Shown here in pieces: positions 2,913-38,890 of a stretch of DNA of 46,260 nt. Every line of letters starts with the position of its first letter. Position 1 is the stretch's first letter. Position numbers and translations under genes: made by a program. The notes beneath the pieces were generated by a model, which was not told the DNA's origin, searched no databases, and saw only the letters and a program-made list of their open reading frames with translations. The stretch is from Pseudomonadota bacterium (lineage in GTDB: Bacteria; Pseudomonadota; Alphaproteobacteria; Micavibrionales; UBA2020). Location: NCBI GenBank assembly GCA_021805245.1, contig JAJZFS010000089.1:1-46260 (forward strand), written 5' to 3'.

Positions 2913-4997
2913 CTATCCCGATCTTAAGTATTTAATCGCCATATCCCGTTCGAACAGGTAGAGCAGCATGCGCAAGGCCGTGCCGCGCGGGGAGAGCAGC
3001 TGCGGGTCGCGGTCGAGGATCAGCCGCGCGTCGTCGAAGGCGGTCTTGATCAGCGCGCCGTGAAATTCCGGATGGGCGAGGCGGAACTCAGGCAAACCGC
3101 TCTGCTTCGTGCCCAGAACCTCGCCCGCGCCGCGCAGCTTCAGATCTTCTTCCGCGATGACGAAGCCGTCTTCCGTGTCGCGGATGGTGGTCAGGCGTTT
3201 TTTGGCGGTTTCATTGCAGTTGGTATTGTAAAGCAGGATACAGGTCGATTTTTCCGCGCCGCGCCCGATGCGCCCGCGCAGCTGGTGCATCTGTGCGAGG
3301 CCAAAGCGTTCCGCGTGCTCGATGACCATGACGGTCGCTTCCGGCACGTCGACGCCGACCTCGATCACCGTCGTCGAGACGAGAATGTCAAGATCGCCGC
3401 GCGCGAAGGCGGCCATGACGGCGTCCTTCTCCTGCGGTTTCATGCGTCCGTGCAGCAGGCCGGCGCGGTCGCCGAAATGCTGCTGCATGAGCAGGTATCT
3501 TTCCTCCGCGGCGGCGAGGTCGAGTTTCTCCGATTCTTCCACCAGCGGGCAGACCCAGTAAATGCGGGCTTTTTCTTCAATCTTGCGTTTGAGGGCTTCC
3601 ATCACTTCCGCCACGCGTTCGTTGGAGACGAGCCGCGTGTCGATGGGCTGGCGTCCGGCCGGTTTTTCGGTGAGGCGGCTCACGTCCATGTCTCCGTAGA
3701 CCGTCAGCGTGAGCGTGCGCGGGATCGGCGTCGCCGTCATCACGAGAATGTCGCAGAGTTCGCCTTTTTCGGAGAGCTTCAGGCGCTGGTGGACGCCGAA
3801 GCGGTGCTGCTCGTCGATGATGACGAGCGCGAGGTCCTTGAAGACCACATCTTCCTGAAAGAGCGCGTGCGTGCCGACGACGATATGCGCTTCGCCGCTG
3901 GCGATCATGGCAAGCAGCTTCTCGCGGTTTTTGCCTTTGTCGCGCCCTGTGAGCGTGACGACGGTGAGGCCCATGCGGCTGGCGTATAGCGAGATATTTT
4001 TCTCGTGCTGGCGGGCGAGAAGCTCCGTCGGCGCCATGATGACGCCCTGACCGCCCGAGCCGATGGCATGCACCAGCGCCATAAAGCCGACCGCCGTTTT
4101 GCCGCTGCCGACGTCGCCCTGCAACAGCCGCAACATGCGCGACGGCTGGCGCATATCGTTTTTGATTTCTTCGATCGCCCGCTTTTGCGACTGTGTGAGT
4201 TCGAACGGCAGGGCGGCGAGGGCTTTTTTGTCGAAGTCCGCGTTCCCTTCGAGAATCCGCCCTTTCATTTTCTTTTCCTGCAGGCGCATCAGCGCGATGG
4301 TCAGCTGGTTGGCGAGCAGTTCGTCATAGGCGAGGCGGGCGCGCGCCGGATGGTGCGGCGAGAGATCCGCTTCATCCTGCGGATGGTGCGCCTGATGCAG
4401 GGCTTCATGCCAGCGCGGCCAGCTTTGTTGTTTGATATAGGCCGCGTCCTGCCATTCTTCGAGTTCGGGGATACGCGCCAGCGCGCTGCGCATGATTTTG
4501 AGCGAGACTTTGTGCGTCAGGCCCGCCGTCAGGGGATAGACCGGCTCCACCGTTTCGACGCTCTCGCGTTCGTTGACAAACGCGATCACGTCCGGATGCG
4601 GCATTTGCAGCGTGTGCTGGTAAAACTCGAGCTTGCCGCTGACAATGCGTTGCGTGCCGGGCGGAAGCTGTTGCGCGAGCCAGTCGCCCTTGGCGTTGAA
4701 AAAAACCAGATCGACCATGCCGGTTTCGTCATGACAGCGCACGCGGTAGGGCAGCCCACGGCGTGTCGGCGCGGCATGTTCGTCGATGGTCACGGTCAGG
4801 GTCGCGACCCGCCCGGCCTGCGCTCCGGCGATTTTGGGGGCATAACGGCGGTCGATGACCCCTGAGGGCAACAGCCAGAAAAGGTCGACGATGCGCCCGC
4901 CTGCCACCTTCTCGAACAGCTTGGTCAGGCGCGGGCCGACGCCGGAGATCGCTTTCGTCGACTGGAACAGCGGATCGAGGACAAAGGGGCGCGGCAC
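2913..4997 (-). CDS. recG: ATP-dependent DNA helicase RecG
   Basis: The product is 694 residues, normal for RecG. An N-terminal wedge/OB-fold domain (about residues 10-160) grips branched DNA. It is followed by helicase motif I GDVGSGKT (about residue 290), motif II DEQHRFG (about 394), a motif III TATPIPRTL, and the motif VI region QLRGRIGRG near residue 580. The C-terminus carries the TRG-type region. RecG remodels stalled replication forks and Holliday junctions in the cytoplasm. The start is GTG with AAGGAA eight bases upstream. It is divergent from sdhE with only 32 bases between the starts, an arrangement common in alphaproteobacteria. Confidence 0.95.
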   Translation of the reverse strand: MPRPFVLDPLFQSTKAISGVGPRLTKLFEKVAGGRIVDLFWLLPSGVIDRRYAPKIAGAQAGRVATLTVTIDEHAAPTRRGLPYRVRCHDETGMVDLVFFNAKGDWLAQQLPPGTQRIVSGKLEFYQHTLQMPHPDVIAFVNERESVETVEPVYPLTAGLTHKVSLKIMRSALARIPELEEWQDAAYIKQQSWPRWHEALHQAHHPQDEADLSPHHPARARLAYDELLANQLTIALMRLQEKKMKGRILEGNADFDKKALAALPFELTQSQKRAIEEIKNDMRQPSRMLRLLQGDVGSGKTAVGFMALVHAIGSGGQGVIMAPTELLARQHEKNISLYASRMGLTVVTLTGRDKGKNREKLLAMIASGEAHIVVGTHALFQEDVVFKDLALVIIDEQHRFGVHQRLKLSEKGELCDILVMTATPIPRTLTLTVYGDMDVSRLTEKPAGRQPIDTRLVSNERVAEVMEALKRKIEEKARIYWVCPLVEESEKLDLAAAEERYLLMQQHFGDRAGLLHGRMKPQEKDAVMAAFARGDLDILVSTTVIEVGVDVPEATVMVIEHAERFGLAQMHQLRGRIGRGAEKSTCILLYNTNCNETAKKRLTTIRDTEDGFVIAEEDLKLRGAGEVLGTKQSGLPEFRLAHPEFHGALIKTAFDDARLILDRDPQLLSPRGTALRMLLYLFERDMAIKYLRSG

Positions 4998-5029
4998 TGA
5001 TTTTCCTTGATGAATTTTGCAGGTTCTTT

Positions 5030-5323
5030 ATGTTCTCAAATATGCCTGAAGAAACATCCGAGGACAACTTATCCATAAAGCGCAAAAAGCTGATTTTCCG
5101 CAGCTGGCATCGCGGTACGCGCGAGATCGACCTGCTGCTGGGCAAATTTGCGGAAGAATATGTGCCAGAGTTTAACGCCGCGCAGGTGGCAGGCTATGAG
5201 CGGCTTCTCAACAACAGCGATCCGGACATTTACAACTGGATTACCGGACAGGAGCCCGTCCCGCCGTCGGAAGACGGGGAGGTCGTCGCGCTCATGCTGC
5301 AATTCTTTAGAACGGCATCGTGA
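5030..5323 (+). CDS. sdhE: succinate dehydrogenase assembly factor SdhE (FAD assembly)
   Basis: A 97-residue acidic helical protein of the Sdh5/YgfY family. The signature RGTRE at residues 28-32 (RG followed by E) is the surface that binds the flavoprotein subunit SdhA and promotes covalent FAD attachment. The conserved LLLGKF and YE..L segments follow. ATG at 5030 has an AGG about nine bases upstream; an in-frame ATG at 5042 is also possible. It is divergently paired with recG. Its last 17 bases overlap the 3' end of the convergent membrane-protein gene. Confidence 0.88.
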   Translation: MFSNMPEETSEDNLSIKRKKLIFRSWHRGTREIDLLLGKFAEEYVPEFNAAQVAGYERLLNNSDPDIYNWITGQEPVPPSEDGEVVALMLQFFRTAS

Positions 5324-5789
5324 ACCAGCCCGCCGCGCCCAGCGCCCAGAATATCAGCAACGCCGCGCTATTGAGACCGAGGTAGCATTTCATCGCGACG
5401 CTTTTCTCGGTGAACACGGCTGCACCCGTCAATGCCAGAGCGCCAACGATAAACGGCGTGAGATAGTTGTAATTAATATCGCCGCTCAGAAACGGGATCA
5501 TGGCCTCCGTGATTGCAAAGAGCAGGGCAATCCCGCTTGCACACATGAGCGCGGGCGTCGTGAGCCGCGCGAAATCCGCGCTGCGCGCATTAATCGTGAT
5601 CGCCACGCCGATATTGGCCGCAGCCAGAAGCAGAACAAGGCCAGAGAGGAGGAAAGAGAAGTGCATCAGAAATGCGCTGTCGCGCAGCGTCATCATGGTT
5701 ATCAGCGACGGCGTAAGAACGATCAGGCTCGCGCCGATCGATTTTAAGAGTTCCGTAGTCTTGTTGTCGTTCCGAATCAGAATGGTCAT
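5307..5789 (-). CDS. small integral membrane protein, unknown function
   Basis: This 160-residue protein has four to five clear membrane helices (about residues 18-36, 42-65, 77-98, 108-127 and 136-156) separated by short loops. It has no catalytic motif and no cysteine pair, and I do not recognise the family. GGAG about nine bases upstream supports the ATG at 5789, and an extended -10 box lies at 5823-5831. Its end overlaps the end of sdhE by 17 bases on the opposite strand. Confidence 0.6.
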   Translation of the reverse strand: MTILIRNDNKTTELLKSIGASLIVLTPSLITMMTLRDSAFLMHFSFLLSGLVLLLAAANIGVAITINARSADFARLTTPALMCASGIALLFAITEAMIPFLSGDINYNYLTPFIVGALALTGAAVFTEKSVAMKCYLGLNSAALLIFWALGAAGWFTMPF

Positions 5790-5822
5790 ATGCGTTGCTC
5801 CATGTGCGCAGGATACAACCCC

Positions 5823-5831
5823 ATTATATCA
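5823..5831 (-). promoter_or_regulatory. extended -10 promoter for the membrane-protein gene
   Basis: On the minus strand the sequence reads TGATATAAT, an extended -10 (TGnTATAAT), 34 bases before the ATG at 5789. No good -35 is present, as is common for extended -10 promoters. Confidence 0.45.
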
Positions 5832-5900
5832 GCCGCCCCTGAAGAAACGGCTAAAAAACGCTGCAACTTCAATGATATTCGGTGAAAATTTTAGCCAAAT

Positions 5901-7739: not shown

Positions 7740-9473
7740 ATGAGCAGGATGCAGACACTTTTGGGCAAAAATTTCATCCTTTTCGCGGTTCTTGCTGCGG
7801 GATTGGTCTTCGGCGCTGCGCCGGCTCATGCCTTTACCAACGCGCAAATCCAGAGCGCGCAGCACCAGAACGACCAGATCCTGCGTCAACAACAATTGCA
7901 ACAACAAAGCGAGATGGATAAAGCCCTGCGCCTGCGCAGGCACACGCATATCCAAGTGCCGATCCCGAAGATGCAGAAGGGGCACGGCAAGGGCTGCCGC
8001 CTCATCAAGCACATCGAACTGCTCAATGCCGTGCACATGTCGAAGAAAGAAGCAAGAAAACTGACCGCCCCGTTCGAAGGGAAATGCCTCGGGGTCGACC
8101 AGATCGAGAAGCTGATGTCCGGCGTCACGGCGTTTTACATCCGCAAGGGCTATGTCACGACCCGCGTCTATCTGCCCGGACAGAACCTGAAAACGGGCAT
8201 CCTCAAACTGCAGATCGTCCCCGGCGTCGTGCAGTCGATCCAGACCGAAAAAGACAAAACGCATATCAACTACCTCGGCAATATTTTTCCGGGCATCGTC
8301 GGGCATGATCTCAACCTGCGCGATTTCGAGCAGGGGATCGACCAGATCAACCGTCTTCTCTCCAACAACGCGACCATGGACATCGCGCCGGGCAAGCAAG
8401 CGGGGATGAGCGTCGTCACGATCAAAAACAAGCCTTCCAAGCCCTGGCATGTCAGCGCGAGCTACAACGACTATGGCTCCGCGACCACGGGCCGCGACCA
8501 GACGAGCGTCACCGCCAGCTTCGACAACCTCGCGGGGCTTCAGGATTTCACCAGCCTGACGGCGAACAAGACTCTCCCCTTCAATAACGGCTACCACGAA
8601 GCCACGGCCTACAGCCTTTTGATGTCCGTGCCGTTGGGCTATTCCACGCTGTCGTTCAACTACAACAAGTCGAACTACAACAGCACGATCCATTCCGGCG
8701 CGACCAACCTGCACCTCAACGGCACCGACAATGCGGGCACTTTGACGCTTGATCGCGTCGTCTATCGCGATCAGGCAGGCAAGGCCGACGTCAGCGCCGC
8801 TCTTACCAACGACGTCACCAATACTTATATCGACAACCAGTATATCAGCGTCAGCTCGCGCACGCTGACCTATCTGACGCTGGGCGCCAACTACAGCACG
8901 CGCCTTTTGGGGGGCGCCTTCAACGCTGGCGTCGGCTATGCGCGCGGTCTTGGCTTCTTCAATGCTCTGCATGACGGTTCAAGCATCAGCAGCGCCGTGC
9001 CGCACGCCCAGTTCGACAAATACACGCTGACCGCGGGCTACAGCCGTCCTTTCGTCGCGGAGAAACAGCAACTTGTCTTTTCGACGCAGTTCAGCGGCCA
9101 ATACGCGCCCTATGCGCTCTATGGCAGCCAGCAATTTTCCATCGGCGGCCTTTACACGGTGCGCGGTTTTCTCGACGAAGAAATCGCCAACGACGACGGC
9201 TTTTATCTCCGCAACGATCTGACCCTGCTCAAAACCGCCAAATTCGGCAAACGCACCTTCAATATACGCCCGCTGATCGCGCTTGACGTCGGCGCGGCGG
9301 GAAGCGTCCACGCCGGCACGCAAGCCGGTATGCTCGCGGGCGCCGCGGTCGGCACGGACATTTCCAGCGGTCCCGTCGATTTCAACATTCTTGTCGGACA
9401 CCCCCTGATTTATCCAGGCACAGTGGGGCATCCCGGTTTCAACTTGTTAGGACGCCTGTCCATCACCTTTTAA
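7740..9473 (+). CDS. two-partner secretion outer-membrane transporter TpsB (ShlB/FhaC/HecB family)
   Basis: The product is 577 residues, typical for TpsB. The signal peptide (about 1-31, ending AHA) is followed by a Gln-rich linker or plug helix. A POTRA-type periplasmic region with LNAVHMSKKEARKLTAPFEG, then VTAFYIRKGYVTTRVYLPGQ, lies at about 70-150. The rest is a beta-barrel of alternating strands ending in ...LLGRLSITF with a C-terminal aromatic. The conserved lid-loop motif VRGF sits at about residue 473. TpsB proteins recognise the TPS domain of a partner in the periplasm and pass it across the outer membrane. The partner gene starts 20 bases downstream, so the two form an operon. It might also serve the TPS-domain protein at 36392, which has no transporter of its own here. 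Confidence 0.92.
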   Translation: MSRMQTLLGKNFILFAVLAAGLVFGAAPAHAFTNAQIQSAQHQNDQILRQQQLQQQSEMDKALRLRRHTHIQVPIPKMQKGHGKGCRLIKHIELLNAVHMSKKEARKLTAPFEGKCLGVDQIEKLMSGVTAFYIRKGYVTTRVYLPGQNLKTGILKLQIVPGVVQSIQTEKDKTHINYLGNIFPGIVGHDLNLRDFEQGIDQINRLLSNNATMDIAPGKQAGMSVVTIKNKPSKPWHVSASYNDYGSATTGRDQTSVTASFDNLAGLQDFTSLTANKTLPFNNGYHEATAYSLLMSVPLGYSTLSFNYNKSNYNSTIHSGATNLHLNGTDNAGTLTLDRVVYRDQAGKADVSAALTNDVTNTYIDNQYISVSSRTLTYLTLGANYSTRLLGGAFNAGVGYARGLGFFNALHDGSSISSAVPHAQFDKYTLTAGYSRPFVAEKQQLVFSTQFSGQYAPYALYGSQQFSIGGLYTVRGFLDEEIANDDGFYLRNDLTLLKTAKFGKRTFNIRPLIALDVGAAGSVHAGTQAGMLAGAAVGTDISSGPVDFNILVGHPLIYPGTVGHPGFNLLGRLSITF

Positions 9474-9493
9474 AAGAGCTAAAAGAGGCCCCC

Positions 9494-12400
9494 ATGCTTA
9501 CATCCCCCCAAAAAGCCCTTCGCCGTACCAAAATCATCTGTGCGTTGCTCGCCGCAAGCTGCCTCGTCAGCCCCGCCCGCGTATTTGCGCAAGTGACGCC
9601 GGCCGGCACGACGAACACGCAGGTGACCACGGCGCCGAACGGCGTGCCGGTGGTGAACATCGCCAACCCGAACAGCGCGGGCCTCTCCAACAACCAATAC
9701 ACGAACTATAACGTCGATAGCAAAGGCCTCGTCCTCAATAACGACACCGCGACGCAGGCGATGCAGGTGCAGTCGCAGCTCGGGGGCGCGGTTTCGGCCA
9801 ACACCAATCTGACGTCCGAAGCGAAGGTCATTCTGAACCAGGTCGTCTCCACCAACCGTTCGACGCTCGCGGGCTATACGGAAGTCGTGGGCGGCAAGGC
9901 CGACGTCGTCGTCGCCAACCCGAACGGCATCACCTGCGACGGGTGCGGCTTCATCAACATTCCCAACGTCATGCTGACGACCGGCAACCCGAACATCGAC
10001 CCGACGACCGGCGTGCTGCAGAACTTCCTCGTCAACAAGGGCGACATCCTCATCACGGGGCAGGGGCTTGATGCCAGCAATACCGATTATATCGGCCTCT
10101 TCGCCCGCTCCATCACAGTCGCGGGCCAGATCAACGCCAAGGCGCTCGACATCATCGCGGGCGCGAACAGCATCGACTACGCCACCAAGGCCGCAACGGC
10201 GCAAACCCCGACCGGCACGGCGCCGACGCTGGCGATCGACTCCTCCCTGCTCGGCGGCATGTATGCCGACCGCATCCGCCTGATCGCGACCGAAGCGGGC
10301 GTGGGCGTGCGCCTGCTGGGCGACGCGGCGACCGGCGCGGGCGACTTTACGCTCACCTCCGCGGGCACAATCGACGTCGAGGACAAGATTTCATCGAAAA
10401 ACAACATCGCCATCTCCAGCACCGCTTCCGGCACGGATGCGATCAGGGAAACGGACGCCTCTTTGAGCGCGTCGGGCGATCTTTCCCTCACGGATACCAG
10501 CGGCAACATCCATCTGGTCGGTGGGGCGCTGGTCGCGGGCGGCGGCTTAACGCTGACATCGGACACCCTGACCGATCAGGGTGACACGAACAGCATGACC
10601 AACGACAACATGCGCTATGCCACGGGCAATGTGACGCTCTCGCAAAGCGGCGACGCCACGCTGGACGACACCAGCTTCGGCGCGGGCGGCGCATTGAAAG
10701 TCACTACCGCGGCGCTGACTGTCGGCGCGGACGGAGAAACGATATACGGAGGCACTGTCAATATCACATCCACCAACGACCTCGCGCTCGCGGGAGCGGT
10801 GGTGAACAGTACGGGCAATCTTGTGCTGACCTCCACGGGCGGACAGATCACGGATTCTTCCGCAAGCGGGCAGGGCATTCAGAGCCAAAACGGCACCGTT
10901 ACCCTTGAGGCCGCGAACGGTCTTGACAATGCGGGTGCCATAAGCGCGGCCACGGGCGGCATTAATGCCCTTATCGGAGGCACGCTCAGCAACAGCGGCA
11001 CGTTGTACGCCAAAGATGCTATCAGCATTAAAGATTACAGCGGCAACGGTACGGAAGACGTTACCAGCAGCGGCAAGATCGTCGCTGACGGCAGCCTCGG
11101 CATCACTGCGGACACGCTGACCAACGAAAACGGCGCGGACATGCAGTCCGGTACCGGTACGAACTTTAATGTCACGACGCTGGACAACAGCGGCACGCTG
11201 ACCGCAGCAACGAACGCGAGCGATACGGGCACGATCAATGCCAGTTCCCTCACTAATGCTGTGACGGGCATCCTGCAATCCGCCGGCGCGCTTGTCCTCA
11301 ACATCAAAAACACTCTGGTCAATGAATACAAAATTCTTAGCACCGGCGATCTGGCCATTAATGAAAGCAACAGCACAGTCACGCTAACCGTCAACAACAA
11401 TGCTGCCGGCATCATGCAGGCGGGCGGCACGCTCCATATCAAGGGGGCGGGGGGCAGCGACAACGTGTCCATCGGCACGCAAAACGGCGGCATACTCGCC
11501 AACGCCCTCGACTTCAACGTTTCGTCCCTGACGAACGGCGGCACGATCCAGGGCGGCGGTGGCGCCAGTACGGTGGACGTCGGCGGCACGCTGACAAACA
11601 ACGCAAACTCCCTGATCAACCTTGCGACATCGTCTTCCGGTACGGGCACGATCAACGCGACCGACCTGACCAATAACGGCACGATCCAGTCCGCCGGCAG
11701 CCTGACGGCCAACATCAGCAATATGCTGACGGACGCCAACAACGCTAAAATCATTGCCGGCACCGATCTTACGCTCGGCGTATATTCGCTCTCCATGGGC
11801 GGCTCGGGGTCCGCCCTCATCGCGGCGCAATCCGGCACCGGCACGGGCAAATACACCTTCAGCACCGGCCTGACCAACAAGGGCGCGCTGTTCTCCGGCG
11901 ACGATCTCACGGTTTCCGCGCCGTCTATCGATAACACATCAACCGGCGGCATCGCCGCGACAGGCAACCTGACCGTCACCGCGACCGGCAACGGCTTCAC
12001 GAACTACGGCGCGCTTTACGGCGGCACGTCGCTGACCGCGCAGGCGATCGGCAACTGGTTCACCAACGAAGATGCGGGCACGATGGACGGCGGCAATATC
12101 AGCGTCCTCTCTTATGGGTTTATCAATAATAACAACATCAATGCCAGCGGCGACCTGACGGTCAACGCAACTTACTTCTATAACGAAGTGACGGGCGGCG
12201 ACCAGCGCGCCTGGAGCTACGGCGCTTCGACGACGACCAGCACGGGCTGGAGTAGCGATCCGTCGGGTCTTCTCTGGGGCCAAAGCGCCGACGACTACTA
12301 TACGAGGACATGGACGAACTCCCAATATTACACGGCCCAGGCGACACACAAACCGCAGATGGAAGCGGGCGGCACGCTCAGCATCAGCAACTTCCAGTCC

Positions 12401-15400
12401 GGTCTGAACCTCGGCGGCATCATCTCCGGTCATACTGTCGACATCTCCACCACGCAGGGTGGCGCGAGCTTTACTAACGACGATTACAGTCTGACGACGC
12501 TCAACTACACGGAAACGTGGAGCGATCACGTCTCCTGCTGCTCCAAGGTCATTTATCTCGACTATTCCGGTCCCAACAATGACACGACCTCGCACACCAC
12601 CAGCCAGACTTCCTACGGCGGCGGCATTTACGCGACCAATCTGAACGCCAGCGGCTTCTCGCTCACCAACGCGGGCAGCCCCTATGCGGCGAATGTCAAC
12701 AGCACTACTAATTCCGACACCCTCTCCGGCAGCACCTCCACCACTTCGGGCGCGGGCACGGTCACGCTCGGCGGCCTCACCATCACGCTGCCGACGAACC
12801 CGAACGGCTATTTCATCGTCAGCAAGGACCCGAATTCCCACTACCTGATCGAGACCAACCCGATGTACAGCGTCGGCTCGTCGTTCCTTGGCTCCGACTA
12901 CATGATCAAGACCTACGGCCTCGACCCCGATGCCGTCGAACGCCGCCTCGGCGACGCGAACTACGAAGGCAGCCTCATCAAACAGCAGGTCTTGAACGAC
13001 GGCGCGGCCGCAATTCTCGGCACGGGCGACCAGGCCGCCGCGATGCAGCAACTGATGGATAACGGGGTGACCGAAGGCAAATCCCTCGGCCTGAAACTCG
13101 GCGTTGCGCCCACGGCGGCGCAGCTCGCCAACCTGAAATCCAACATGGTGTGGATGGTGGATACGGTCGTTGACGGCCAGCACGTCCTCGCCCCCGTCGT
13201 TTACCTCAGCGCGGCGACGAAATCGCAAATCACGGGCGGCGCGGTCATCGCGGCAGCCAATACCAACATGAACCTGACCTCGCTCACCAACACCGGCGGC
13301 ACGATCTCGGGCAGCGACAACCTCAACATCACGACGTCGGGCAACATCACCAACACCAGCGGCACGCTCTCCGGCGGCAACGTCAGCCTCGCCTCGACCA
13401 ACGGCAGCATCATCAACCAGACGCTGGCGCAAACCTCCGGCGGCACAGGCAACGAGCATACCGATATCGGCAAGACGGCGAGCATCGGCGCGACCGGCGA
13501 TCTTTCGATGAACGCCAAGAACGACATTACCAACAAAGGCGCGAACGTGAGCGCGGGCGGCAACGCCAGCCTCAACGCGGGCAACAACATCACCTTCACG
13601 AATATCGAAGATAATGAATCGTCGCAAACGCATACGCATAGCGGCAACGCGGGCCTCTTCGGCAGCGGTAACTCAACCGATACGACCACCACCACCGGCA
13701 CGAACATCGGCTCCAACCTCAGCGTCGGCGGCAACCTGACCAGCAAGAGCGGCAATGACACGACCATTCAGGGCAGCAACGTCAACGTGACGGGCAACGG
13801 CTCGGTCACGGCGGGCGGCAACATCAATATTCTGGATGGCCAGAACACCTCCGATACCTCCACCTCGAGTACCCGCAGCGGCGCGGGCGTCGGCGGCGGC
13901 CTCTATGGCACGACCACCACGACGGACACCGACAATAAAAGCACCAGCGTCGCCTCCAACGTCAACTTCGGCGGCAATGCCAGCCTGAACGCGGGCGGCG
14001 ACCTCACGCTGCAGGGCAGCCACGCCAGCGCGGGCGGCAACATGGACGTCAACGCCACGGACGTCAACGTCCTCGCGGGCCGTAACACCGAAACCCACAC
14101 AACCACGACGTCCACGACGACCTTCGGCAAGATTGACACCGGCACCAGCAGCAACAGCTCCGGTGCGAGCGCGGGCGCGCAGGCGGACAGCGGCAGCAAC
14201 GCCGACCAAGGCGGGCACGCCGGTGCGGACGCAAATGCCGGCGCACAGGCCAGCAATACCGACCAAGGCGGCGTGACGCTCTCCGAAACCAACACGACGT
14301 CGACGGCGCATTACATGTCGAATGCGGCGGGCTCGTCGCTTTCCTCCGGCGGCAACATGAACATCAACGCCAAGAATGACGTGAACATCGTCGGCTCGAA
14401 CGTCAATGCGGGCGGCGATGCCAACGTCAACGCCAAGAACGTCAACGTCCTCGCGGCGCAGAACATCGACACCACCACCACTACCACGTCCGATACCAAG
14501 ACCGGCCTCTACGGCACGAGCAATAACACCGCGAAAGCAAATGCGGATGCCAATGCCAATGCCCAGCAGGGCGGCAACGGCAACCCCTCGGCGAATGCCG
14601 GCGCGAATGCCAGCGCTTCGGCCAACAGCGACAATACGCTTGCTTTGGTGCAGAGCGACCAGAGCACGGATAACGTGACGGATATCACGCACACCGGCAG
14701 CGGCATCACCTCCGGCGGCAACATGAACATCAACGCGCAGAACGACCTGAACGTCAACGGCTCGAAACTGAGCGCGGGCGGCAACGCTGACCTCAATGCG
14801 ACGAACATGAGCTTCACCGCCGCGACCGACAGCCACACCGAGACGAAGACGGACAGCAACACCGCCGTCGGCCTCTATGCCTCGGCGGGCGCCAACGCGC
14901 AAGCCGGCGCGAACGCGGGCGCACAAGGCATGATCGGCAGTGCCGACGCCAGTGCCGGCGCCGACGCCAACGCGGGTGTAGGCCTTTATGGCACCAACAC
15001 CACTTCGGGCAGCATTCAAGGCTCGACCACGGCACAGACCAGCATGATCAGCGCGGGCGGCAACCTCACCCGCAACGCTTCGAACGACATCACCGATCAG
15101 GGCACGCAGATCAATGCGGGCGGCAACTTCAGCCAGTCGTCCAAGACCTGGGAAAGCAACGCCGCGCAGAACACCACCTTCTCGTCGAACTCGTCAGACA
15201 CCAACACCGCGAAACTCGGCCTCTATGCCGACGCCAACGCCGGTGCTTCGGCGGGCGCCAGCGACCTGACGGGCACGAACACCAGCGCAGGTGCCGACGC
15301 TTCGGCCGGCCTCGAAGCGTCCTACAGCGGCGACAAGGAAACCAACAGCGCCACCTCGAGCAACGCCGTCGTTTCCAATATCCACGCGGGCGGCAACGTC

Positions 15401-17224
15401 ACCACGAACACCAGCGGCGCGGCTTCACTTGAAGGCACCAATATGTCTTCCGGCGGCGACATGACGCTGAATGCGGGCTCGCTGAACTACACCGCGGCGC
15501 ATAACACCTCCACCTCCAGCAGTTCGAGCCGCAAAATCGATGCCGACCTGAAAGTGGGCGTCGATGCCACCCATGCCGTCACCGGCAGCGTCAGCGGCGA
15601 TTACGGCCAGAGCAGCAGCTCCAGCAGCGAGAACGACGCCGTCGCCGGCGGCATGAACGCGGGCGGAAATCTGCACGTCAATACCACTGGCGACGCCAAC
15701 TTCGAGGGCACGAACCTCGCAGCGGGCGGCGACGCGGGCATCAACGCGGGCGGCAACGTCAACTTCACCGCCGCGCACAACACCAAGTCGAGCTCGAGCA
15801 GCGGCTTCGACGTCGGCGGCAGCCTTTCGGCCTCCAAGAGCAAGGGCGGCGGCAAGAGCAGCTCCAGCCAGGGTTTCAGCGTCAACGGCAGCTATAACAC
15901 ATCGCAGAGCAGCGAGAACGACGCCGTCACCGGATCGATCAAGTCCGGCGGCAACCTCAGCGTCGCGTCGGGCAAGAACGCCACCTTCGAAGGCACCAAC
16001 CTTTCCTCCGGCGGCAATACCTCCGTCGCCGCCAAGGGTGATGTCAGCTTCAATGCCGCGCAAAGCACCTCCAGCTCCAGCGGCTTCAACGTCGGCGGCA
16101 GCATCGGCGGCAGCAAGGGCAGCAAGTCCGACACCAACAAGGGCACCAGCGAAAAGTCCTCCGGCGGTTCGTTCAGCCTGAACGGCGGCTATAACGACAG
16201 CGGCTCCACTACCGAAGCGGCCTCGAACATCAACTCCGGCGGCTCGGTTACCGTCAGCTCCGGCCACGACGTCAACCTGCAGGGCACCAACATCGCCTCT
16301 ACGGGCACGACGTCGCTCAACGCCAAGCATGACGTCAACTTCACCGCGACGCAGAACACCTCGCACTCCTTCGGCGCGAGCGGCAGCATCGGTGGCGGCA
16401 CGAGTACGAAAGTCTCGACAGACAGCAAGTCAAGCAGCCAGGCGAAGACCGAAAAGAAAAACACAGGCTCGGTCGGCTTCGGCGTCTCGGGCGGCAACCA
16501 GACCGATGAGAACGGCGGCAGCATCACCGCGGGCAATATCTCGATCAACTCCGGTAACGACACCACGCTCGTCGGCACCAAGACCCACAGCGCGGGCGAT
16601 ACCACCGTCAACGCCGGCGGCCAGGTCAACCTTGAAGCCGCGCACAGTAGCGGTTTCTCGGGCGGCATCGGCGGCGGCGCCAGCGTCACCAAGAGCAGTG
16701 AATCACAAGCCAACAACCCCAATCTTCCGAACGGAAATAAATCTTCCACCAAGGGGATGGGCGGCCTCTCACAACTCGGCATCTCCGGCAACTCCAGCGA
16801 TCAGGGGGTTGACATGAGCAGCGGTGGCAATCTGACCATCAATTCCGGGGGCAAGACCACCATGCAGGGCAGCAAGCTTTCCGCAGACGGCAATGCCAGT
16901 GTCAACGCCAAGGGCGGCATCGAGAAAAAGACCACTGTCGGCGTTCACGGCAAGCTGGGTCTGAGCGAAGCGGGCGCGGGCGTCAGCATCCAGACGGCGC
17001 AGATCATTTCTAAAAACATCGCAAAATCTCCGGAGGCCGCGAAACTGGCAAAGAGTTTCACCACGATCGAGAACAATCCCAACCTCACACGGGCGCAGAA
17101 GTTCACGGCGATGGCCGACCAGATCAAGAACGATGCTTCGCTGACAAAGGCAGAAAAGTCGAACATGCTCGCCGCGCTCGACAAACAAGAGAAAACTCTC
17201 GACGCGACCGACACCTCGAATTAA
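9494..17224 (+). CDS. giant two-partner secretion exoprotein TpsA (filamentous haemagglutinin/CdiA-like, no toxin domain seen)
   Basis: The product is 2576 residues. After a signal peptide (about 1-32, ending FAQ) comes a TPS domain (about 33-280) with GLSNNQYTNYNVDSKGLVLN and the hallmark NPNGITCDGCGF near residue 142. Haemagglutinin beta-helix repeats follow. A Tyr/Trp-rich segment lies at about 895-1040, and a region starting YLIETNPMY near 1117 with SDYMIKTYGLDPDAVERRLG matches the conserved middle part of CdiA/haemagglutinin proteins. A second repeat block (about 1340-2475) comes next, then a short charged helical C-terminus of about 85 residues. No VENN pretoxin motif, toxin domain or downstream immunity gene is visible, so an adhesin or biofilm protein is more likely than a contact-dependent inhibitor. 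AAGAGG upstream supports the start. TpsB precedes it. Confidence 0.93.
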   Translation: MLTSPQKALRRTKIICALLAASCLVSPARVFAQVTPAGTTNTQVTTAPNGVPVVNIANPNSAGLSNNQYTNYNVDSKGLVLNNDTATQAMQVQSQLGGAVSANTNLTSEAKVILNQVVSTNRSTLAGYTEVVGGKADVVVANPNGITCDGCGFINIPNVMLTTGNPNIDPTTGVLQNFLVNKGDILITGQGLDASNTDYIGLFARSITVAGQINAKALDIIAGANSIDYATKAATAQTPTGTAPTLAIDSSLLGGMYADRIRLIATEAGVGVRLLGDAATGAGDFTLTSAGTIDVEDKISSKNNIAISSTASGTDAIRETDASLSASGDLSLTDTSGNIHLVGGALVAGGGLTLTSDTLTDQGDTNSMTNDNMRYATGNVTLSQSGDATLDDTSFGAGGALKVTTAALTVGADGETIYGGTVNITSTNDLALAGAVVNSTGNLVLTSTGGQITDSSASGQGIQSQNGTVTLEAANGLDNAGAISAATGGINALIGGTLSNSGTLYAKDAISIKDYSGNGTEDVTSSGKIVADGSLGITADTLTNENGADMQSGTGTNFNVTTLDNSGTLTAATNASDTGTINASSLTNAVTGILQSAGALVLNIKNTLVNEYKILSTGDLAINESNSTVTLTVNNNAAGIMQAGGTLHIKGAGGSDNVSIGTQNGGILANALDFNVSSLTNGGTIQGGGGASTVDVGGTLTNNANSLINLATSSSGTGTINATDLTNNGTIQSAGSLTANISNMLTDANNAKIIAGTDLTLGVYSLSMGGSGSALIAAQSGTGTGKYTFSTGLTNKGALFSGDDLTVSAPSIDNTSTGGIAATGNLTVTATGNGFTNYGALYGGTSLTAQAIGNWFTNEDAGTMDGGNISVLSYGFINNNNINASGDLTVNATYFYNEVTGGDQRAWSYGASTTTSTGWSSDPSGLLWGQSADDYYTRTWTNSQYYTAQATHKPQMEAGGTLSISNFQSGLNLGGIISGHTVDISTTQGGASFTNDDYSLTTLNYTETWSDHVSCCSKVIYLDYSGPNNDTTSHTTSQTSYGGGIYATNLNASGFSLTNAGSPYAANVNSTTNSDTLSGSTSTTSGAGTVTLGGLTITLPTNPNGYFIVSKDPNSHYLIETNPMYSVGSSFLGSDYMIKTYGLDPDAVERRLGDANYEGSLIKQQVLNDGAAAILGTGDQAAAMQQLMDNGVTEGKSLGLKLGVAPTAAQLANLKSNMVWMVDTVVDGQHVLAPVVYLSAATKSQITGGAVIAAANTNMNLTSLTNTGGTISGSDNLNITTSGNITNTSGTLSGGNVSLASTNGSIINQTLAQTSGGTGNEHTDIGKTASIGATGDLSMNAKNDITNKGANVSAGGNASLNAGNNITFTNIEDNESSQTHTHSGNAGLFGSGNSTDTTTTTGTNIGSNLSVGGNLTSKSGNDTTIQGSNVNVTGNGSVTAGGNINILDGQNTSDTSTSSTRSGAGVGGGLYGTTTTTDTDNKSTSVASNVNFGGNASLNAGGDLTLQGSHASAGGNMDVNATDVNVLAGRNTETHTTTTSTTTFGKIDTGTSSNSSGASAGAQADSGSNADQGGHAGADANAGAQASNTDQGGVTLSETNTTSTAHYMSNAAGSSLSSGGNMNINAKNDVNIVGSNVNAGGDANVNAKNVNVLAAQNIDTTTTTTSDTKTGLYGTSNNTAKANADANANAQQGGNGNPSANAGANASASANSDNTLALVQSDQSTDNVTDITHTGSGITSGGNMNINAQNDLNVNGSKLSAGGNADLNATNMSFTAATDSHTETKTDSNTAVGLYASAGANAQAGANAGAQGMIGSADASAGADANAGVGLYGTNTTSGSIQGSTTAQTSMISAGGNLTRNASNDITDQGTQINAGGNFSQSSKTWESNAAQNTTFSSNSSDTNTAKLGLYADANAGASAGASDLTGTNTSAGADASAGLEASYSGDKETNSATSSNAVVSNIHAGGNVTTNTSGAASLEGTNMSSGGDMTLNAGSLNYTAAHNTSTSSSSSRKIDADLKVGVDATHAVTGSVSGDYGQSSSSSSENDAVAGGMNAGGNLHVNTTGDANFEGTNLAAGGDAGINAGGNVNFTAAHNTKSSSSSGFDVGGSLSASKSKGGGKSSSSQGFSVNGSYNTSQSSENDAVTGSIKSGGNLSVASGKNATFEGTNLSSGGNTSVAAKGDVSFNAAQSTSSSSGFNVGGSIGGSKGSKSDTNKGTSEKSSGGSFSLNGGYNDSGSTTEAASNINSGGSVTVSSGHDVNLQGTNIASTGTTSLNAKHDVNFTATQNTSHSFGASGSIGGGTSTKVSTDSKSSSQAKTEKKNTGSVGFGVSGGNQTDENGGSITAGNISINSGNDTTLVGTKTHSAGDTTVNAGGQVNLEAAHSSGFSGGIGGGASVTKSSESQANNPNLPNGNKSSTKGMGGLSQLGISGNSSDQGVDMSSGGNLTINSGGKTTMQGSKLSADGNASVNAKGGIEKKTTVGVHGKLGLSEAGAGVSIQTAQIISKNIAKSPEAAKLAKSFTTIENNPNLTRAQKFTAMADQIKNDASLTKAEKSNMLAALDKQEKTLDATDTSN
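13530..16890 (+). repeat. second haemagglutinin repeat block of TpsA, with periodic low-complexity inserts
   Basis: About a dozen diverged units of 90-125 residues are visible. Each has a GSNV/GTNL-type turn, an xAGGNxxxNA strand, a VNxxAAxNT strand and a variable Ser/Thr loop. Four consecutive units carry Ala/Gly/Asn/Asp-rich inserts, starting near 14153, 14521, 14877 and 15224. The next four units instead carry Ser-rich loops near 15507, 15781, 16063 and 16357. An exact 28-base direct repeat occurs at 14343-14370 and 14709-14736. Confidence 0.85.
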
Positions 17225-36343: not shown

Positions 36344-36391
36344 TAAATGGCGGTACCAACGAAAAAACAAAATGACGAGTGGGGCAAGATA

Positions 36392-38890
36392 ATGCACAAA
36401 CTTACAAAATTGACGGCGACGACGGCACTGGTGACCCTCCTTGCGGGATTTACCTCACATGCCGCTTATGCTTTGAGCGCCGGTGCGCTTCCTCAAGGCG
36501 CAACCGTTGTCGGCGGCAGCGCGACCTTCAGCAATCCGACATCCACCAGTTTGACGGTTGACCAGAGTACGGAACGCTCGGTCATCAACTGGCAGTCGTT
36601 CGATATCGGCAGCAAAGCTGCGGTGCAGTTCGTTCAACCGGATGCGAGCGCGCTCACGGTCAACCGCGTCGTCGGCTCTTCGGCCAACCCCGCGCAGATT
36701 CTCGGCACGCTGAAATCCAACGGTCGGGTCATGATCCTCGATCAGAACGGCGTCCTGTTCGGCAGCAACGCAGTCATAGACGTCGGCGGCATCATCGCTT
36801 CGACGGGCGATGTCGACAATGCGCAGGTTATGTCCGGTTCCAACAGCATCGATATTACCAATATCGGCGGCGGGTCCGTCATCAACCAGGGGAGCATCAC
36901 CGCGGCGCAGGGCGGCCTTGTCGCGCTGGTCGCGCCTTATGCCGATAATAGCGGCATCATTACCGCCAACCTTGGCCGCGTCGAACTTGCCGCGGGCAGC
37001 GCCGTGACGGTGGATCTTTCCGGCGATAACCTTGTTTCCATGGCGGTGACGGGGCCGGTCGCCAATGCGCTGGCGGCAAACTCCGGCACAATCGCGGCGG
37101 ATGGCGGACGCATCGCCATGACGGCGCGTGCCGCGGCGGGCGTCGTCAGCGACGTCGTGAACATGACGGGCGTTCTGCAGGCGGATACGGTCGGCATGCA
37201 AAACGGCGAGATCGTTTTGAGCGGCGGCAGCGCAGGCATCGTCAATGTGGCCGGTACGGTGAATGCGACGAACGGCGCGACAGGCGGGCGTGTCGACGTG
37301 ACGGGCAACCAGATCGCCTTGAATAACGCACAGGTCAATGTTTCCGGCACGGGCGCGGGCGGACAAATTTATATCGGCGCCGGTCTGAGCGGTGCGCAGG
37401 ACGGCACGGATGCGCCGGCGGCGTCAACGGACATTTCTTCCGGCAGCGTCATCAACGCGGACGCGACGGATAACGGCAACGGCGGCACGGCTGTCGTCTG
37501 GGGCAGCCAGCACGACGGGTTCTACGGAACGGTGACGGCGCGCGGCGGTGCCAACGGCGGCAACGGCGGCATGGTCGAGGTTTCGACCGGCTCGGGCGTC
37601 GATTTCTCCGGCGTGGTCAATACGACCGCGGTGCGGGGCAACGTCGGCGAACTTTTGATCGATCCGGCGTCGGTCGCCATCGGCAACGGCACGCAGACGG
37701 TGAGCGGCAGCACTTATCTTAATGCGCAGAGCATTGCCGACAGTCTGGTCTTCACGTCGATCGATATTCAGGGAACCAGCAATATCGACGTGATCAACAG
37801 CATCGACCTTTCCACCAGCACTTACGGGACGCCGGTCTATCCGCTGACGCTGACGACGCCGACGTTCAATCTCAATTACAACATGAACATGGGCACGTCG
37901 AGCCAGCTCGCGCTGAATGTGACCACAATGAACCTGAACGGCCACATCACGTCCGGCGGCACTGATATCCCGCTGTCGCAGGTCAGCAGCACGGCGACGC
38001 AGGTCAACGTCATGAGCAACCTTGCCAGCATCCAGCAGGGCATGGATATCTCTTCCACGACGTTGCCCGTCACCGTCAATGTCGCCACCGGCCAGTACAA
38101 TGAGAACCTGGCCGTCAACAAGGCCGGTCTGACTCTCTCCGGCATCGTCAATGCGACGGGTGCAGGCGCGGATGCGACGGCGCCCGAGCTGTTCGGCACG
38201 GCCGCGGGCGGAAACATCATTACCGTTACGGCCAACAACGTGACGATCGACGGCTTCCACCTCAACGCGCAGGTCAGCGGCGGCTCGGTTGCGAACAGCG
38301 CTTACGGCGTCTATGCCAGCGGCGTGGATAGCCTGACGGTCGACCATAATACCTTTGACGGCTTCTCCGTTCCGGGGATCTCCACGCCGACATCGACCAA
38401 CGTCACGCTGACATCGAATACCAATATCAATGTGCCGAGCACGGGCACGGGTACCGGCACCGGCACCGGCAGTGGCGGCGGCAACGGCGGTACGGACGAG
38501 TCAGATAATGGTGATGATCATGGCGGCGATCATGGCAACCACAAAGATCATGGCCATCATTACGGCCGGGACGGCGAGCATGGCGTGGAAAATGCGGAAA
38601 CGCATGCGGCGCCGGAAGCGCAGGGAGCTCTTGATCACGCAGAGCAGGCGGGCGATCATACCCGGTCGTCAGATAAGCCCGACATCTCCGCAGTCCATGA
38701 AGGCATGGAGGCCGCGCACGCCGGCGCGGAGCGTGGCGAGACGGCACTTGATGTCGATCATCACGATGCCGTGAGAGATGCGGTCGATATCCGCACGACG
38801 GTCACGGACGCACACGATGACGGGCACGACGAAGATCATCACAAGAAGAAAGACGATAAAAAAGAGGCGCGCCACCACGACCATCGGTAA
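36392..38890 (+). CDS. TPS-domain exoprotein (haemagglutinin N-terminal family) with beta-helix and His/Asp-rich tail
   Basis: The product is 832 residues. The signal peptide (about 1-27, ending YALS) leads into a TPS domain with SVINWQSFDIGSKAAVQF, ILGTLKSNGRVMILDQNGVLFG (motif near 117-124) and VDVGGIIAST-like strands. Beta-helix repeats follow (about 160-460), then pectate-lyase-type PbH1 repeats (GQYNENLAVNKAGLTLSGI, VTIDGFHLNA, DSLTVDHNTFDGF). A Thr-Gly repeat linker begins near 685. The last 130 residues contain 21 histidines among many Asp, Glu and Lys. It is probably secreted across the outer membrane by a TpsB. No transporter gene adjoins; the one at 7740 is a candidate. ATG 36392 has GGGGCAAG upstream; an in-frame start at 36347 is less likely because the signal peptide would be displaced. 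Confidence 0.85.
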   Translation: MHKLTKLTATTALVTLLAGFTSHAAYALSAGALPQGATVVGGSATFSNPTSTSLTVDQSTERSVINWQSFDIGSKAAVQFVQPDASALTVNRVVGSSANPAQILGTLKSNGRVMILDQNGVLFGSNAVIDVGGIIASTGDVDNAQVMSGSNSIDITNIGGGSVINQGSITAAQGGLVALVAPYADNSGIITANLGRVELAAGSAVTVDLSGDNLVSMAVTGPVANALAANSGTIAADGGRIAMTARAAAGVVSDVVNMTGVLQADTVGMQNGEIVLSGGSAGIVNVAGTVNATNGATGGRVDVTGNQIALNNAQVNVSGTGAGGQIYIGAGLSGAQDGTDAPAASTDISSGSVINADATDNGNGGTAVVWGSQHDGFYGTVTARGGANGGNGGMVEVSTGSGVDFSGVVNTTAVRGNVGELLIDPASVAIGNGTQTVSGSTYLNAQSIADSLVFTSIDIQGTSNIDVINSIDLSTSTYGTPVYPLTLTTPTFNLNYNMNMGTSSQLALNVTTMNLNGHITSGGTDIPLSQVSSTATQVNVMSNLASIQQGMDISSTTLPVTVNVATGQYNENLAVNKAGLTLSGIVNATGAGADATAPELFGTAAGGNIITVTANNVTIDGFHLNAQVSGGSVANSAYGVYASGVDSLTVDHNTFDGFSVPGISTPTSTNVTLTSNTNINVPSTGTGTGTGTGSGGGNGGTDESDNGDDHGGDHGNHKDHGHHYGRDGEHGVENAETHAAPEAQGALDHAEQAGDHTRSSDKPDISAVHEGMEAAHAGAERGETALDVDHHDAVRDAVDIRTTVTDAHDDGHDEDHHKKKDDKKEARHHDHR

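Follow-up and report, generated by a model that had tools for sequence, protein, structure and literature searches.

The window, by which we mean the whole stretch of 46,260 nucleotides analysed here, contains an orphan gene for a TpsA exoprotein with a histidine-rich C-terminus (hereafter the tailed protein) and, at a distance of about 27 kb, its only TpsB gene. The features considered are the following.

36392..38890, + strand: orphan TpsA exoprotein gene, an open reading frame of 832 aa plus stop
36392..36472, + strand: probable Sec signal peptide (aa 1-27, MHKLTKLTATTALVTLLAGFTSHAAYA; cleavage likely after AYA; read by eye)
36482..37261, + strand: TPS secretion domain (aa 31-290; Pfam PF05860, E 2.4e-28)
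37262..37681, + strand: continuation of the EtpA/HMW1-like right-handed beta-helix (aa 291-430; confident AlphaFold2 strands to about aa 424)
37652..38437, + strand: second module, specific to the orthogroup (aa 421-682; Beta_helix/NosD-like repeats at its end; from the orthogroup alignment)
38438..38494, + strand: Thr-Gly / Gly linker (aa 683-701)
38495..38887, + strand: His-rich C-terminal tail (aa 702-832; 21 His in 131 residues, Cys-free)
7740..9473, + strand: TpsB of the CdiB/FhaC type, an unlikely exporter of the tailed protein (ShlB, PF03865, E 2.6e-85)
9494..17224, + strand: large haemagglutinin-repeat TpsA, the presumed partner of the TpsB at 7740 (TPS domain, E 5.4e-52; Fil_haemagg_2 in 10 stretches)

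The start codon at position 36392 is preferred over an upstream ATG at 36347, since two close relatives (L041 and L042) open with the identical MHKLTKLTATTALVTL while their preceding sequence differs. Residues 1-27, read by eye from the sequence, show typical n, h and c regions and the AYA site. The TPS domain is the sole Pfam match in the full-length protein, which also matches the NPxG domain TIGR01901 (E 7.6e-19) and ends in a low-complexity tail; CdiA-type haemagglutinin repeats and a C-terminal toxin domain were not found by Pfam. The preliminary description of a TPS-domain beta-helix protein with a Thr-Gly linker and a tail of about 130 residues holding 21 His is confirmed for positions 36392-38890, as is its observation that no TpsB adjoins the gene. 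Synteny of the window with L041 and L042 involves housekeeping genes. Neither a metal transporter nor another metal gene or a Zur-type site was seen beside the tailed gene (immediate neighbours in the members examined; promoters by eye).

A sequence search against solved structures returns EtpA first (8vba, aa 14-690, E 1.3e-69), followed by HMW1 and HxuA. The AlphaFold2 model of the tailed protein, for which an alignment of 20 rows served as input, has a confident region of about aa 29-430, with a pLDDT mostly above 85 in the TPS domain, and is poor beyond: the pLDDT stays below 50 for aa 431-561 and for almost all of the tail, in which two low-confidence helices are modelled. Foldseek aligns the confident part with the secretion domain of EtpA (8cpk, E 1.7e-25, target TM 0.93) and with HMW1 (TM 0.89). 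The second module has Beta_helix matches in 6 of 7 members (best 1.9e-14) and NosD matches in 3 of 7; the window member taken alone reaches E 0.0028, which is under the Pfam cut-off. The best reading of these results is a type Vb exoprotein of the EtpA/HMW1 class with a beta-helix passenger, which may be called an adhesin on account of its fold only.

The closest known protein, by sequence and by the fold of the secretion domain, is EtpA of enterotoxigenic E. coli (8cpk, 8vba), a secreted beta-helix TPS protein. EtpA has repeats of its own, and its gene lies in etpBAC together with those for its TpsB and its glycosyltransferase. The tailed gene has neither neighbour and adds a His-rich tail, the end of EtpA itself lying outside the comparison. 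HMW1 and HxuA of Haemophilus influenzae share the TPS domain and the beta-helix (2odl, 4i84, 4rm6) and are anchored by a disulfide at the C-terminus (PMC5422565), whereas the mature part of the tailed protein is free of Cys. The CdiA/FhaB-type pair at 7740-17224 belongs to the same secretion class; compared with it, the tailed protein lacks haemagglutinin repeats and an adjacent TpsB, and its TPS domain is the weaker Pfam match (E 2e-28 versus 5e-52).

The tail is exceptional in composition. Assuming a His background of 2.2%, 21 His in 131 residues have a probability of about 1.6e-12, and the C-terminus is the most His-rich among the 62 window frames of at least 230 aa (the second, with 15 His, occurs in one of several overlapping candidate frames). 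With a profile of the second module, eight complete members (each E <1e-110) were identified in 142 genomes of the order. G000 (the window genome), G004 and G005 belong to the genus of the window, G011 and G016 to a sister genus, and G033, G036 and G042 to another family. A ninth member, in G017, is cut by a contig end such that linker and tail alone are visible. The same profile retrieved no further member beyond the window's own from 385 genomes sampled evenly from the class. The last 130 residues of the eight complete members contain 21, 20, 18, 3, 20, 18, 20 and 12 His, hence 12-21 in seven of the eight, spanning two families. The exceptions are G011 and the truncated G017, with 3 His each and a Gly/Asn-rich end. 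Orthologues thus mostly keep the tail, as the preliminary description required. By comparison, the equivalent C-terminal stretch holds 0-3 His in the 28 TPS paralogues of the order whose ends are complete, and 0-4 in relatives outside it, where one exception reaches 7 over a stretch that includes masked letters.

The repeat linker is present in all nine members, with a sequence specific to the lineage (TG, PTPA, GGGDT or DGG). The tails vary strongly between members in charge, length and helical content. Since the net charge of linker plus tail ranges from -22 to +2 while the richness in His persists, we reject acidity as the conserved feature. The tail of the G016 member (L124 8216-11101, - strand) consists of an extreme Gly/His/Asp stretch with a hydrophobic VIVVCVKIIKLVKLLLWS end, unlike the other members. 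A single origin of the tailed group is left unsupported either way by the TPS-domain tree alone.

The window genome harbors four TpsB genes. The TpsB at 7740, which the preliminary description had put forward as a possible secretion partner, is not supported in this role. Its own TpsA adjoins (2576 aa, with no toxin domain at its C-terminus by Pfam), and it has an orthologue in G004 only, that is, in one of the seven other member genomes; two of the 14 genomes examined carry this TpsB. Much better suited is an orphan TpsB on contig 2 of the window genome (4185-5873), which has no TPS gene adjoining. Its clade (clade I) is represented in G000, G004, G005, G011, G016, G033 and G042, which are seven of the eight genomes that encode a complete member; no clade-I TpsB is present in the eighth, the 88% complete draft of G036. 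Clade I is present as well in genomes that do not encode the tailed protein. None of the eight complete members has an adjacent TpsB. The genome of G033, a single contig, encodes exactly one TpsB (at 2.15 Mb) and one TPS protein, the tailed one (at 0.95 Mb), 1.2 Mb apart. In the TPS-domain tree, the tailed proteins share one supported branch (96/96) with TPS proteins near clade-I TpsBs, and TPS proteins beside clade II and III TpsBs fall elsewhere. From the co-occurrence of the clade, the one-to-one situation in G033 and the shared TPS-domain branch we pair the tailed protein with the contig-2 TpsB, whose role as its predicted exporter is well supported by computation.

The exporter may serve other proteins, too. 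One TpsB faces five TPS-domain proteins on three contigs in G016, a ratio that suggests a shared exporter, and other TpsAs may use the same clade-I TpsB. We also note a broken, frameshifted TPS-domain remnant (L131 134-549) beside the clade-I TpsB of G005.

A type I export route, for which the tail would serve as C-terminal signal, has to be weighed against this pairing, because the tailed gene in G011 and G016 and its cut end in G017 are followed immediately downstream by an operon for TolC, a C39-type ABC protein and HlyD (loci L123 13415-17014, L124 3199-7989 and L219 511-5342, all in the sister genus). In the genus of the window, however, the orthologous operon is located on another contig with no tailed gene beside it (G000 C10, G004 C8, G005 C22), and in the other family the tailed gene is neighboured by YhdP and Bax1-I genes. 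The Sec-type N-terminus and complete TPS domain of the protein likewise argue against this route, which we regard as very improbable for the protein and, given that the operon adjoins the tailed gene in the sister genus only, unlikely as a general one. Just upstream of the tailed gene, G033 (L125 10954-11625) and G042 (L127 2861-3520) encode a 220-aa Gly-rich protein with a TPS-domain-like fragment.

A different role for the tail may be considered in view of the ends of its paralogues. At least two Cys are found within the last 70 residues in 19 of the 28 complete TPS paralogues of the order, and a PAAG motif precedes the end in 15 of the 28. For instance, L185, L187, L189, L196, L202 and others have a conserved PAAG followed by two cysteines in the C-terminal 70 residues; such ends are a possible HMW1-like anchor and may merit a family of their own. 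The cysteine pair is absent from the C-termini of all tailed proteins, whose tails contain one Cys at most, and the mature window protein has none. The tail might then be mainly a retention device, disordered and metal- or pH-responsive, that stays in the TpsB pore or the periplasm or sticks to lipopolysaccharide and so holds the rod at the surface instead of the usual disulfide anchor, metal capture not being its task. It does occupy exactly the place of the paralogues' cysteine pair, and in HMW1 and HxuA the end of the TpsA is reportedly locked in the TpsB pore by a disulfide loop at the C-terminus (PMC5422565). From this position we infer that the tail could replace the disulfide anchor. 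A specific plug, however, fits poorly with tails so variable in charge, length and helical content, and several paralogues have neither both cysteines nor a His tail, so that an anchor does not appear to be obligatory. On balance, we consider retention as the main task of the tail unlikely, if deserving of some weight.

Still less would be required of the tail if it were a solubility spacer or low-complexity end grown by repeat slippage, its His being a by-product of codon drift among His, Asp and Gly with no dedicated role. The linkers are indeed pure repeats that differ by lineage, the linker is kept in G011 and G017 despite hardly any His, and the tail diverges more quickly than the body, with dN/dS values of 0.27 and 0.06-0.14, respectively, when the window gene is compared with its G005 counterpart. 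With these values the tail evolves fast but under constraint, and a spurious frame is ruled out by a dN/dS well below 1 together with the identical frame in relatives. His positions (17 of 21 kept) are conserved scarcely better than the other tail residues (85 of 110). In the comparison of the window gene with G004, 10 of 57 changed non-His tail sites have become His, where 2.5 are expected from mutation (p 2e-4), and the reverse direction gives 9 gains versus 2.6 expected (p 0.001); the test is a rough one, as the synonymous sites of the window/G004 tail are saturated (dS infinite) and the alignment is gapped. The body of the same pair shows no excess of His gains. Gains of about four times the mutational expectation, confined to the tail, speak against a mere spacer, as does richness in His despite different sequences in the window's genus, in G016 and in all three members of the other family. 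We hold the spacer explanation to be distinctly unlikely. The excess of gains together with the varying net charge favours a putative role for His itself, in binding metal or protons, rather than a spacer that is polar and nothing more.

Binding of metal by the tail is chemically plausible, judging from its His-rich composition. UreE, SlyD, HypB and Hpn each hold nickel or zinc with a disordered His-rich end, and are cytoplasmic and otherwise unrelated to the tailed protein. As a working analogy, the zincophores ZepA of Anabaena (PMC10957091) and Pra1 of Candida albicans (PMC12663325) may be considered, both of which are exported and bind zinc outside the cell by means of His. ZepA combines a conserved three-His pocket with a short His-bearing N-terminus (PMC10957091), whereas the His of the tailed protein are located in a disordered C-terminal tail. 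The literature searched, whose coverage is incomplete, contained no named system that joins a TPS domain to a His-rich tail, in agreement with the preliminary description; a search for TPS or filamentous haemagglutinin proteins with histidine-rich ends found nothing relevant, and a review of TPS systems mentions neither 'metal' nor 'histidine' (PMC5422565). What is new among TPS proteins is, on the best reading, a His-rich tail on a known class of type Vb exoproteins.

Our preferred account combines the computed features (fold, layout, conserved richness in His and pairing by co-occurrence) with secretion, metal binding and a purpose for that binding, which we infer. The Sec pathway would carry the tailed protein to the periplasm. 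Its passage through the outer membrane would be the task of an unlinked TpsB, for which the contig-2 gene (4185-5873) is the most likely candidate. Outside the cell, the protein would form a beta-helix rod ending in the NosD-like helical module, from which the flexible repeat linker would present the disordered tail. Numerous low-affinity sites in the tail would bind divalent transition metals (zinc, nickel, copper or cobalt), so that metal is enriched or buffered at the cell surface, or metal bridges tie the protein to itself or to the surface. We assign this whole account, i.e. a type Vb rod with an unlinked TpsB and a disordered metal-binding tail, a probability of roughly 0.45. A metal function would be lost or absent in G011 and G017, which have 3 His each.

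The arrangement in G033, one TpsA and one TpsB separated by 1.2 Mb, makes the unlinked pairing directly testable, and it warns against assigning partners by genomic distance. It is a rather doubtful, more far-reaching proposal that a lineage of alphaproteobacteria has swapped the disulfide anchor of type Vb exoproteins for a His-rich polymer, the rod being a displayed or shed metal chelator with a dedicated, unlinked TpsB. If the tail does bind metal, a TpsA would carry another kind of C-terminal end where its relatives commonly have a cysteine pair, and the cargo of type Vb secretion would include a protein that chelates metal, a role absent from the TPS review (PMC5422565).
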